Part shown: positions 4,587 through 42,917 of the stretch, piece after piece
How the letters are laid out: each line of letters starts with the position of its first letter
How positions within the stretch are numbered: the stretch's first letter is position 1
Origin: Nitrospira sp.
Lineage (GTDB): Bacteria > Nitrospirota > Nitrospiria > Nitrospirales > Nitrospiraceae
NCBI GenBank assembly: GCA_021323395.1
Contig: JAJONL010000025.1
Coordinates: 1-42,917, forward strand
DNA length: 42,917 bases
Direction: 5' to 3'
Notes under the pieces: model-generated
What the model was told of the DNA's origin: nothing
Database searches by the model: none
What the model saw: only the letters and a program-made list of their open reading frames with translations
Translations under genes and position numbers: made by a program

Positions 4587-5669
4587 TCAGGGAAGTTCTT
4601 CCCGGAGGACCTGCGCGGCCTGCTTGATCTCCACTTCCGTCAACGATGGATAAATCGGCAGCGAGACGGCGGATGTATCGGCCTCATCGCTGGCGGGAAA
4701 ATCACACAACTCAAGATAGCGATGGAGGGGGCGAAACACCGGTTTGCGGCACTGCACACCGCGATGCGACACCCGTGAGAGGTAAGCCGTGAATTCATCG
4801 GCCGACTGCAGCCCTTTCGGCAGACGCACCACAAACCGGTAATAACTGTGAGTCCGACCTGAGGGAACGGCCGGCAGCGTAAAAAGTTCCGCGGGCAAGC
4901 TCTCGCGGTAGAGCGCGGCCAACGCCGCCCGCTGATCAAGAAATAGCCCCAGCCGATTGAGTTGCGCGATTCCCATCGCGCCTTGCAGGTCGGTCATTTT
5001 GCAATTGAATGCCGCCCCATCGAGCGAAGGAGCTTTGTCATATTCGCGCAAGGCGCGCACACGTTCGAGCAAATCCGCATCATTCGACAACACCATCCCC
5101 CCTTCCCCCGTGCAAAGGAGTTTGGTGGCATAAAACGAACAGACGGTCAGAATGCCGACAGTGCCGACGGAACGCCCCTGTTCCGTTGCACCCAATGTCT
5201 GAGCGCAATCCTCGATCAGGGGGATGCCCAGGGATTGCAATCCCGTCAGGTCCGCCGGCAACCCGAACATGTGGGGGACGATCACCGCGCGCGTGCGCGA
5301 AGTCCTGGCCTTACGAACCCTCTGCGGGTCGAGGTTGTAGGTTTCCGGATCGATGTCCACAATGCGCGCTTGAGCGCCGACCCGCTGTACCGCGAGCCAA
5401 GGCGCGGAGCACACGTAGCTGGGCAAAATAATGTTGTCACCTGCTCCGACGCCGAGCGCACGTAAGGCCAACTCGATGGCAACTGTTCCGGAATTCACGG
5501 CCACTCCCCCTTGGAGGCCGAGGTATGCTGCCATGCCTCGCTCAAACTGCGCCACGGCTGGGCCTTGGGCGACCTGGCCCGAACGAAGGACCTCCGTCAT
5601 GACACGGATGTCGTCTGGTCCGATAGCGGGCTTGGAATGCGGGATCATGGTCATGGCATCACGGGTCAC
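4587..5669 (-). CDS. DegT/DnrJ/EryC1/StrS family aminotransferase
   Basis: PLP-dependent sugar or cyclitol aminotransferase-fold protein of 360 residues. It shows the family's substrate-loop motif (VNSGTVAIELALRALGV), an internal aspartate in PLIEDCAQTLGA, and the PLP lysine in SFYATKLLCTGEGG (Lys183). Such enzymes usually make amino sugars for lipopolysaccharide or secondary products; no sugar pathway genes are adjacent, so the substrate is open. The start is uncertain: GTG at 5669 opens the frame, but ATG codons at 5654 and 5648 are also possible and none has a good ribosome site. A possible promoter lies about 65 bp upstream. Confidence 0.88.
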   Translation of the reverse strand: MTRDAMTMIPHSKPAIGPDDIRVMTEVLRSGQVAQGPAVAQFERGMAAYLGLQGGVAVNSGTVAIELALRALGVGAGDNIILPSYVCSAPWLAVQRVGAQARIVDIDPETYNLDPQRVRKARTSRTRAVIVPHMFGLPADLTGLQSLGIPLIEDCAQTLGATEQGRSVGTVGILTVCSFYATKLLCTGEGGMVLSNDADLLERVRALREYDKAPSLDGAAFNCKMTDLQGAMGIAQLNRLGLFLDQRAALAALYRESLPAELFTLPAVPSGRTHSYYRFVVRLPKGLQSADEFTAYLSRVSHRGVQCRKPVFRPLHRYLELCDFPASDEADTSAVSLPIYPSLTEVEIKQAAQVLREELP

Positions 5670-39941: not shown

Positions 39942-39960
39942 AAGGATGCTCAAAACGGCC
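39942..39960. repeat. isolated end of the dispersed repeat (fragment)
   Basis: AAGGATGCTCAAAACGGCC matches the terminal repeat of the elements at 40027, 41716 and 42831 but has no partner end nearby. It is followed by a partial GC-rich tract with 'GCAAGGCTGCAG', similar to the element core. Probably a decayed copy. Confidence 0.6.
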
Positions 39961-40026
39961 ACTTCTCACCCGCCCATCCCAGCGCGCCGAGACGCGCTTT
40001 TCCTCAGGCAAGGCTGCAGAAAGACG

Positions 40027-40110
40027 CAGGATGTTCAAGACGGCCTGCCAGCAAGGCCGCAAGGAGACATGCAACCGAGAACGATGCTGGAGGCCGTTTT
40101 CAACATCCTG
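40027..40110. repeat. dispersed repeat, short copy with terminal inverted repeats
   Basis: The 19-bp ends (CAGGATGTTCAAGACGGCC and the inverse of CAGGATGTTGAAAACGGCC) match at 17 positions. The inside carries CCAGCAAGGCCGCAAGGAG, shared with the other copies. The right end touches CTAG, whose TAG is the stop codon of the CBS gene. It codes for nothing I can recognise. 39835-40026 is otherwise empty. Confidence 0.75.
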
Positions 40111-40545
40111 CTAGTCTTGCCCGATTTTCGGTTCCGAATACACCTGATTCGCAGCCAACCGCGATTGCGCGTACCGTTTGTAGTGCATTAACAGATCGCG
40201 GACGGATACGACGCCCACGATCGAGCCGCCTTTGGTCACGGCAAGATGGCGCACGCCGAGATCGCCCATCATATCCTGCGCCTCATCGACCGCCTTATTG
40301 CTTTCGATGGTGCACACGGGTGAGGTCATGATTTTGTCCACCGTGAGTTTCGACACATCCTGGCTACCGGCCAGCGCCTTGCGCACCAAATCGGTATCGG
40401 TCACGATGCCGACATGATTCTTCCCCTTCTTGACAAGGAGAGAGCCGACCCGCAGCTCCCGCATTTTCTTCGCCGCGCCGCGAACAGACGTAGTCGGACC
40501 CACACTTTGAGGATGTTTGTTCATGATCTGCGCCACAGTCGCCAT
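40111..40545 (-). CDS. CBS-domain pair protein, second copy
   Basis: A 144-residue protein with two CBS domains (~1-60 and ~70-125), ending in HVGIVTDTDLVRKALAG and IVGVVSVRDLLMHYKRY. It is a diverged paralogue of the CBS protein in the haem operon (shared GI(I/V)TDTD(M/L)VR and SVRDL motifs) with an extra C-terminal tail. Start ATG 40545 has AAAGGT at suitable distance; an in-frame ATG 21 bp upstream lacks one. The last residues (KIGQD) and the TAG stop run up to the edge of a dispersed repeat. Confidence 0.87.
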   Translation of the reverse strand: MATVAQIMNKHPQSVGPTTSVRGAAKKMRELRVGSLLVKKGKNHVGIVTDTDLVRKALAGSQDVSKLTVDKIMTSPVCTIESNKAVDEAQDMMGDLGVRHLAVTKGGSIVGVVSVRDLLMHYKRYAQSRLAANQVYSEPKIGQD

Positions 40546-40596
40546 ATCACATACCTTTCTGCCCAATGGGACAAGAGAATCGATAATGAAGCCACA

Positions 40597-41628
40597 CTAC
40601 GGAATCGCGAGCACGATCTTACCAAAAAACTTTCTGCTCAGTAGATGTTCTTGCGCCGCCTTCGCGTCGGCCAGCGGGAAGGTCCGATCGATCACCGGCC
40701 GCAACCGCCCTTGCCCGATCAATTGCGCGGCCCTTAGCAATTCGCTCAGAGATCCCATGTACGACCCTTTGATCGTGAGCTGGCGGGAATACACGTAGCG
40801 AAGATCGAGCTTCACCTCCGCCCCGGTCGTGGCCCCGCAGGTCACCAACCGCCCGCCCTTGGCCAACGAGTCGATACACTGCCCCCACACATCCGGTCCG
40901 ATATGCTCGATTACCACATCCACCCCACGGCGATGCGTCAGCTCTCGCACCCGCTGGTTGACCGGCTCACGGCTGTGATTGATCACCTCATCGGCGCCGA
41001 GTGACTTGGCCTTGGCGATCTTGTCGTCGCTGCCGACGGTGGTGAAGACCCTGGCGCCGGCCAGCTTGGCCATCTGGATGGCCATGTGCCCCACCCCACT
41101 CCCCGCCCCCATGATCAACACGTCTTCGCCGAGCCGAAGATCGGCGAGTGAAAACAACATGTGCCAGGCGGTGACGGACACCAGCGGAAACGCTGCCGCC
41201 TGCTCAAAGGTCAACGTGCCTGGAACCGGGTAGACGTTCCTCGCGGGAACCTTGACGTATTCAGCATACCCGCCATGACACATCGCCCCGATCAACCCAT
41301 AGGAACGGCACATATTGTCACGACCGGCAACACAGTGCTCGCACCGTCCGCAACCAACACCGGGAGACACGAACACCCGTTCCCCCTCGACCAGGCCCTC
41401 CACCTGCGAACCGATTTGTTCCACTACGCCGGCGATATCCGAGCCCGAGATGTGGGGCAGCGGCATGGGATAGGCGGGGCTGCCCTGCCTAATCCAAATG
41501 TCGAGGTGGTTCAACGCGCAGGCTTTCACCCGAATGAGCACCTCATTCTGGCTGAGAGTCGGCGCCGGCATCTCTTGGTACTGCAACTTGCCGGGCCCGC
41601 CATGTTCATGAAAAACGACTGCGTTCAT
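40597..41628 (-). CDS. medium-chain dehydrogenase (zinc-type alcohol dehydrogenase / quinone reductase-like)
   Basis: A 343-residue oxidoreductase: GroES-like N-terminal domain, structural zinc lobe GCGRCEHCVAGRDNMC with four cysteines, and NAD(P) domain (DVLIMGAGSGVGHMAIQMAKLAGARVFTTVGSDDK). The usual catalytic zinc ligands are missing: positions near the first ligand read CALNHLD, and GHE is replaced by SGSD. It is therefore probably a zinc-independent reductase. ATG 41628 has GAGGGG upstream; a longer start 12 bp before it lacks support. Confidence 0.9.
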   Translation of the reverse strand: MNAVVFHEHGGPGKLQYQEMPAPTLSQNEVLIRVKACALNHLDIWIRQGSPAYPMPLPHISGSDIAGVVEQIGSQVEGLVEGERVFVSPGVGCGRCEHCVAGRDNMCRSYGLIGAMCHGGYAEYVKVPARNVYPVPGTLTFEQAAAFPLVSVTAWHMLFSLADLRLGEDVLIMGAGSGVGHMAIQMAKLAGARVFTTVGSDDKIAKAKSLGADEVINHSREPVNQRVRELTHRRGVDVVIEHIGPDVWGQCIDSLAKGGRLVTCGATTGAEVKLDLRYVYSRQLTIKGSYMGSLSELLRAAQLIGQGRLRPVIDRTFPLADAKAAQEHLLSRKFFGKIVLAIP

Positions 41629-41715
41629 GTCACCCCTCACGCGTGATTCGTGGCTACATTACGTTTCCGTCCCAATGCACCCTTTCCCGGATGATAACTA
41701 GATACAGCTTTCTCG

Positions 41716-41840
41716 CAAGATGATCAAAACCCCATCTGACAAGGCCGCAGGGAGCCCGGCGACTGCGTCGTACCCTTGTGGTACGTCGCAGGGAGGCGGG
41801 TGACTGAGAACGCAGTGAGATGGTGGTTTCATCATCCTGC
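41716..41840. repeat. dispersed repeat, long copy with internal hairpin
   Basis: About 125 bp with 23-bp imperfect inverted ends (around 41715-41737 and 41818-41840, about 19 matches). The core shares AAGGCCGCAGGGAG and GAGAACG with the 40.0-kb copy and adds an internal hairpin CGTACC-CTTGT-GGTACG. The right end is CAGGATG next to CTAG, whose TAG is the phzF stop codon. There is no coding frame inside that I can support. Confidence 0.75.
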
Positions 41841-42657
41841 TAGAAGGTGAGCGTCCCCTCCACCACCATCATGGCCTGCCCCCCGACCATCACGGCTTGA
41901 ATCACTTCCTCATCGGAATCCACCTGAATCAGAATGCGGGATGGGCGATCGATCTCATATCCCTGCTCAGCGGTAATTTCGGTCATCGGACTGATATCCA
42001 CGACGCCGTGCTGCACCAAGTAGGCGCCCAAGGCGCCGCTGGCGCTGCCGGTCGCAGGATCTTCCACGATCCCGATCAAGGGAGCGAACATGCGCGTATG
42101 CACCGTTGAGGATTGTTCGACCGTCATTGTACTGAACACCATGAGACCATTGGCACCGTACTGCTGAGAGAGTTCCGCAATGGCGGCGACATCGGGAATG
42201 ATCGAACGAACAGCCGTGAGCGTTCGCACCGGCACGATGATGACCGGCAGTCCGGTCGGTTTGGTTGCGACATCACCACACGTTCGATCACACCGTCTCG
42301 CGCATGGATGTCGACAGGAAATAGTCCCAAATTGCATTCCTGCAGAACCCTGGTCACCGGTCCCTTGAGAGTCAGGCGTTTCAGCATCCCCAGCACAAAG
42401 AAGGTGCCGATCACAGGATGTCCGGCAAAGGGAATTTCTTGCGTAGGAGTAAAGATGCGCATTTTGACCACCGCCGCCTTGTCGGTCGGTGGAAAGACGA
42501 ACACGGTTTCCGACAGATTCATTTCGCGAGCGATCTGCTGTAACTCCACATCGGTCAATCCATCGGCGTCCGGAAAAACCGCCACGGGATTCCCACCGAA
42601 TGGTTCGTCGGTAAACACGTCGGCTTGATAGAACTGCAGTCTACGCTGCTCGGCCAT
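41840..42657 (-). pseudogene. PhzF-family isomerase/epimerase gene with internal deletion and frameshift
   Basis: The first part, from ATG 42657 (GAGGAG upstream), encodes the PhzF N-terminal half: VFTDEPFGGNPVAVF, the catalytic glutamate in LSETVFVFP (Glu50), FTPTQEIPFAGHPVIGTFF and RVVMSQPNRP. After about 42258 that frame loses similarity. The second half continues in another frame: PTGLPVIIVPVRTL, GLMVFSTM and FAPLIGIVEDPATGSASGALGAYLVQHG. The family has roughly 30 more residues between the two parts, which are missing. A deletion of a length not divisible by three explains this. Assembly error is an alternative. The substrate of an intact protein would be unknown. Confidence 0.8.
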
Positions 42658-42830
42658 AGGCTCCTCAAGAAAGTTGCTGGCGCATGTTGCCCCGAGTCGC
42701 GTTTTTTTGCAAGGGGCGTCTGAGCGGTTCGGCAGATCAGAATTTCAATACTGAATGTTCAAGGCGCAATTGAACGCTGCGCATGGCGGGCGCTCACATT
42801 TCACGTTTCACAACTAACATTTCACTCCCG

Positions 42831-42917
42831 CAGGATGCTCAAAACGACGTCCACTAGGCCGCAGGCAGGGCAAAACCGGAGGCGTACCCTCAGAGGTACG
42901 TTGAGGATTTTGACGAG
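42831..42917. repeat. dispersed repeat, copy cut by the window end
   Basis: Begins CAGGATGCTCAAAACGACG and shares AGGCCGCAGG and the hairpin CGTACC-CTCAGA-GGTACG with the copy at 41716. The right end lies outside the window. The stretch 42658-42830 before it is the phzF upstream region and holds no gene I can support. Confidence 0.65.

Follow-up and report, generated by a model that had tools for sequence, protein, structure and literature searches.

The window, by which we mean the whole stretch of DNA analysed, is the complete contig C16 (42,917 nt) of a 234-contig, 3.50-Mb Nitrospira assembly. The closest named relatives of a gene neighbouring the repeats are Nitrospira MAGs with at most 91% protein identity; Candidatus Nitrospira defluvii (FP929003) stands at 87%. 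Two minus-strand genes, both named by eye, accompany the repeats: a CBS-domain-like gene (40111–40566), which is orthologous in same-genus genomes, and a PhzF-like gene (41840–42657). The latter is split over two overlapping frames (41840–42337 and 42124–42657) despite collinearity with its relatives, a reading that reflects a frameshift or an assembly error.

Three fuller copies of a short repeat and one fragment had been claimed for this region in a preliminary description, and all the pieces were located, each on the plus strand. Copy 1 (40026–40114; covariance-model E of 9e-17) is a short unit devoid of the apical hairpin, with arms (40026–40046 and 40091–40111) that are 90% complementary and a fold z-score of −7.1 against shuffled sequence. 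Copy 2 (41715–41843; E of 1.3e-18) is a full leaderless unit, in which 41715–41740 pairs with 41816–41841 as a basal stem and the fold reaches −67.4 kcal/mol (z of −6.9 against shuffled sequence). The right ends of both copies run into TAG stop codons, that of the CBS-domain-like gene for copy 1 (reverse complement of 40111–40113) and that of the PhzF-like gene for copy 2 (reverse complement of 41840–41842). Copy 3 (42830–42917) has a type-B interior (GCAAAACCGGAGGCGTACC..GGTACGTTGAGGATTTTGA) and is incomplete because the contig ends inside it. The reported CGTACC-loop-GGTACG hairpin lies in two copies, as CGTACC-CTTGT-GGTACG in copy 2 (41769–41785) and as CGTACC-CTCAGA-GGTACG in copy 3 (42883–42900). 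The core described as shared, AAGGCCGCAGGGAG, is exact in copy 2 only and reads AAGGCCGCAAGGAG in copy 1 and TAGGCCGCAGGCAG in copy 3. The fragment at 39942–39960 is present, but it represents just the first 19 bases of the left half of a variant unit (39942–40020), with the left arm CAAGGATGCTCAAAACGGCC and the interior CTTCTCACCCGCCC...AGGCAAGGCTGCAG; the right half of this unit is absent. The variant interior also occurs in the orthologous spacer of L216, L225, L227 and L242. An Rfam search of the window at the gathering score found a tRNA alone and no match for the repeats.

Architecture and target site of the mobile form

The complete mobile form measures at least ~200 bp and is asymmetric, in the order YTAR, CAGGCTGCGGAAAAAC, a ~75-bp leader, a long imperfect hairpin and YTAR. 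The outer arm of the hairpin (GCAGGATG..CAAAAnGG.. / ..TTTTTC..CATCCTG) constitutes the right end of the element. Read from left to right, the copies consist of the outer end CAGGCTGCGGAAAAACTC, the leader, the left arm GCAGGATGnnCAAAAAGGCCGTCCAGC, a conserved AAGGCCGCAG(C/G)GAG, an interior in which a GTACC hairpin is joined by optional modules, and then GAGAACnnnGCTGGCGGACTTTTTCnnCATCCTG. None of the copies read contains a transposase gene. In one copy (L012, contig C67), an interior module (GGTCCACGGCGCG..GTGTC) is nested within another copy of itself, which suggests that the module may itself insert.

The leader-type elements carry terminal inverted repeats, CAGGCTGCGGAAAAAC on the left and CAGGATGCGGAAAAAG on the right, with YTAR outside both ends, and the two ends of an element belong to matching subfamilies (CGG with CGG, TTG with TTG). 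Identical four-mers, including the pairs CTAA/CTAA and TTAG/TTAG, bound 18 of the 26 leader-type elements that have YTAR on both sides, compared to 11.3 expected on shuffling (p=0.004). The tetranucleotide is duplicated target DNA, as the empty site described next shows.

A filled site on contig C163 of the host (4945–5148) consists of CTAA, a 200 bp element and CTAA, with a small gene on one side and a convergent gene on the other. The exact empty site exists in at least eight same-genus genomes, where the flanks join at a single YTAR, mostly CTAA (one CTAA in G007, G001, G020, G003, G019 and G042; one TTAA in G023 and G016). The spot has also been hit repeatedly: G008 and G018 have insertions in the opposite orientation, G022, G010 and G014 have an insertion with another leader, several other species retain degenerate remnants, and G013 holds an unrelated element of a second palindromic family (see below). 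Both convergent genes have their stop codon within the CTAG/CTAA at this position, and each retains one after insertion. The site is a clear illustration of how duplicating 4 bp (CTAG/CTAA) makes insertion at stop codons harmless.

The copies in the window differ from this form in having neither a leader nor a left YTAR. No target site duplication was found at them; in copies 1 and 2, CTAG adjoins the right end but not the left. Since both leader and target duplication are missing, these copies are old relatives of the mobile form, and we conclude that they represent an older, leaderless layer of the family and not intact MITEs.

Family size and candidate transposase

A 15-base end, GCAGGATGNTCAAAA, matches the genome 110 times with at most one mismatch, compared to a single match for the reversed control. 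A covariance model built from nine copies gave at least 78 matches in the host at E≤0.01 (150 candidates scored), and merging the two lists yielded at least 117 distinct sites on 78 contigs. A repeat with no further genomic copies is excluded by these counts. The model also matches 40 of 41 relatives, with only two copies in one genome of the same genus (G004), and it has matches in 25 of 72 genera across the phylum, which are strong inside the host's own family and order and weak further out. The family is thus order-wide among the relatives of Nitrospira. No earlier description of this family was found in open-access full text; in RepRanger (PMC12306157), Nitrospira moscoviensis appears as a table row only. 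The specific family is absent from the literature searched, and the kind of element is already known. The family accounts for many intergenic repeats in Nitrospira, which is among the major groups of nitrite oxidisers, and is probably part of the reason why Nitrospira assemblies break, as exemplified by contig C16, which ends within a copy.

The preliminary description placed the responsible transposase outside the window, and insertion sequences that are autonomous and share the end do exist in relatives. A search among the DUF772 genes of the genus identified insertion sequences of ~1.32 kb (about 1,315–1,325 bp) in G001, G023 and G019, bounded at both ends by YTAR|CAGGCTGCGGAAAAAC and sharing an identical 16-bp end with the repeat family; the one in G023 has TTAG on both sides. 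The proteins of G001 and G023 match NCBIfam NF033581 (IS5_4) with 282.5 and 278.9 bits (cut-off 140), and both carry the Pfam domains DUF772 and DDE_Tnp_1; by these scores they are IS5-type DDE transposases. IS1182 was rejected as the partner family, with scores of 203, 186 and 227 bits under the NCBIfam cut-off of 270. The DDE_Tnp_1 genes of the host (on contigs C157, C215 and C148) were likewise discarded as a source, having no CAGG ends beside them.

No insertion sequence with the CGG-type end was found in the host assembly, which does contain broken pieces, at contig ends, of a sister insertion sequence that terminates in CAGGCTGTTGACAAAC and has a CTAG target. Contigs break within this sister element at four loci (L147, C47:1–99; L151; L158; L159), and the CTAG target seems to supply the TAG stop of its transposase frame. 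Many repeat-rich genomes (e.g. G009 and G011) have no DUF772 transposase, which counts against a single IS5_4 source; another transposase may act there, or the copies in those genomes may be fossils. Because of these genomes, the link between IS5_4 and the repeat is one that we infer from shared ends and target. As judged from these sequence features, IS5_4 transposases most likely moved the family in trans.

Persistence, covariation and gene ends

The orthologous spacers of the window copies were read at 28 same-genus loci. Nearly all species carry leaderless units in the spacer between the MoaB-like and CBS-domain-like genes (IG1), from one to four of them in a direct tandem row; these are mostly exactly 122 nt long and have two interior types. 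The spacer between a dehydrogenase gene and the PhzF-like gene (IG2) has one copy in about two thirds of the species, and several species have none. Occupancy extends to the majority of about 27 species for IG1 and to about 18 for IG2. In these alignments of related sequences, compensatory changes affect 7 of 24 basal pairs among the IG2 orthologs (13 cells compared to 4.1 in shuffled alignments, 0/500), where the basal stem is 91.7% paired, compared to 31–53% when slid. IG1 gave 33 compensatory cells compared to 13.8, across 29 units of exactly 122 nt. A fold with conserved pairing had been proposed earlier, with emphasis on the apical hairpin; the compensatory changes in the basal stem of orthologous copies support the fold, but the apical hairpin contributes a single covarying pair, and the pairing evidence sits in the long basal stem.

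Two further kinds of palindrome were observed near stop codons. A second family, with ends like CCCGGATTATTCATGA .. TCATGAATAATCCGGGC, lies beside CTAG/CTAA at L010 (around C51:3,700), in IG2 of L228 and at the C163 site of G013, and shares some stop-codon sites with the main family. A third type, with TCAGC(T/A)(T/A)TCAGC-like words, lies directly 3′ of stop codons, in IG1 of L218, L221, L223, L233 and others (after the MoaB stop) and also in L231 and L234.

The association with stop codons could mean that the transposase actively seeks stops or gene ends. Of 77 element ends at YTAR, 23 close a frame of 100 codons or more, compared to 220 of 1713 (12.8%) for other YTAR. However, among the elements with YTAR on both sides, 15 of 25 touch a stop that ends a frame of 60 or more codons, where about 43% is expected for any YTAR, so that target sequence and the loss of harmful insertions mostly account for the pattern and active seeking is improbable. 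A role of the hairpins at gene 3′ ends is plausible from sequence comparison. More specifically, the leaderless hairpins may now be host parts, serving the genes whose stops they touch as bidirectional transcription terminators or as elements that protect or tune the ends of the mRNA; this tentative possibility is compatible with an origin by transposition, mobility having merely supplied the hairpins. It is favoured by the long occupancy of both sites, by the compensatory changes, by the order of A-tract, GC stem and T-tract on both strands, and by unrelated hairpins in the same place in four of the five repeat-free species that were folded (L231, L234, L240 and L216; z of −3.0 to −4.1), of which that of L240 is a classic GGCCGTCCA..TGGACGGCC-CTTTT terminator. 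On the other hand, no canonical intrinsic terminator was called at the copies by a scan that admits short loops only, IG2 is devoid of a hairpin in the repeat-free L229 and lacks the copy in several species, and, under crude ORF calling, such a hairpin is missing from most of the window's other gene ends, so that a long hairpin is not seen there as a general feature. In a broader and more speculative form, which we regard as somewhat doubtful, the transposon family would have become a reservoir of interchangeable gene-end hairpins for the order: by inserting at a CTAG stop overlap, an element would part convergent genes, restore their stops and install a bidirectional terminator or 3′-end protector kept by selection for the lifetime of the genus. 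The conserved, covarying copies make such a takeover of a mobile hairpin as a gene-end signal testable.

Compensatory changes could also arise with no selection at all, by quasipalindrome correction in which one arm is repaired from the other, the copies then being neutral fossils. Long, near-perfect palindrome arms do invite arm-to-arm correction. However, correction should perfect the arms, yet a C-C mismatch (columns 11/118 of A2) persists across species, as does the exact unit length of 122 nt; we therefore consider this explanation doubtful, and selection would be the likelier keeper of the stem. A quite different origin, as REP, REPIN or BIME sequences moved by a RAYT (Y1 HUH transposase), draws on the palindromic, intergenic, high-copy and at times clustered nature of the repeats, on ends in CTAG beside stops that resemble GTAG-tagged REPs, which often supply the TAG stop of flanking ORFs (PMC3733652), and on the one Y1_Tnp gene in the genome. 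However, the empty site identifies CTAG as duplicated host target and not an element-borne GTAG/CGTC tag, the units measure 120–200 bp or more and not 20–40, and no copy was found within the 3 kb read around the sole, RAYT-like Y1_Tnp gene (L060, C58:1157–1480; 298 aa). The REP-like alternative of the preliminary description is accordingly rejected, and a RAYT origin appears very improbable.

The preferred reading, to which we assign a probability of about 0.82, is a large MITE family of Nitrospira and its order that is most likely moved by IS5_4-type transposases, duplicates YTAR and is tolerated at stop codons, with old, leaderless, hairpin-keeping members in the window. It is supported by the shared ends, the 4-bp target duplications, the exact empty site and the autonomous insertion sequences in relatives. 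The non-autonomous MITE proposed at the outset therefore stands for the family, but not for the leaderless window copies, which have no duplication. In the mechanism that we propose, the element has no transposase of its own, and the IS5_4-type DDE enzyme of the ~1.32-kb insertion sequences would act in trans, cutting at the two CAGG ends and joining them to a 4-bp YTAR target, which would be duplicated. YTAR, above all the palindrome CTAG, often includes stop codons, among them the stop overlap of convergent genes, and duplication restores one stop on each side. As a stop is left on each side, such insertions are tolerated, and one site can receive several. The window copies would then be old leaderless members at fixed sites, inherited vertically, in which units were gained, lost and rearranged while the hairpin was retained. 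Persistence at orthologous sites and the exact length of the tandem units exceed what a simple hopping MITE predicts and count against this reading. Overall, we conclude that this is a real, order-wide IS5-type MITE family with old leaderless, possibly domesticated relatives.

Comparison with known repeat systems

Cyanobacterial small dispersed repeats and Rickettsia palindromic elements are nested, modular, high-copy palindromes, as is the Nitrospira family; by description, they differ from it in sequence, ends and target. GTAG/CGTC-tagged REPs, REPINs and BIMEs (PMC3733652, PMC3116915) are also high-copy intergenic palindromes that can cluster and whose terminal TAG is often the stop of a neighbour. 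In the Nitrospira family, in contrast, CTAG is a duplicated target, linkage to a RAYT is absent, the unit reaches 120–200 bp or more, and the signature is of the DDE type. The likeness to IS5-derived MITEs and the IS5 family extends to the 16-bp terminal repeat of the relatives' insertion sequences, the 4-bp YTAR duplication, the short length, the high copy number and the lack of a transposase gene in the copies read. Compared to these MITEs, the Nitrospira family is asymmetric, with a ~75-bp leader at one end and a long structured hairpin arm, with optional nested modules, at the other, and it adds leaderless, tandem and positionally conserved forms.
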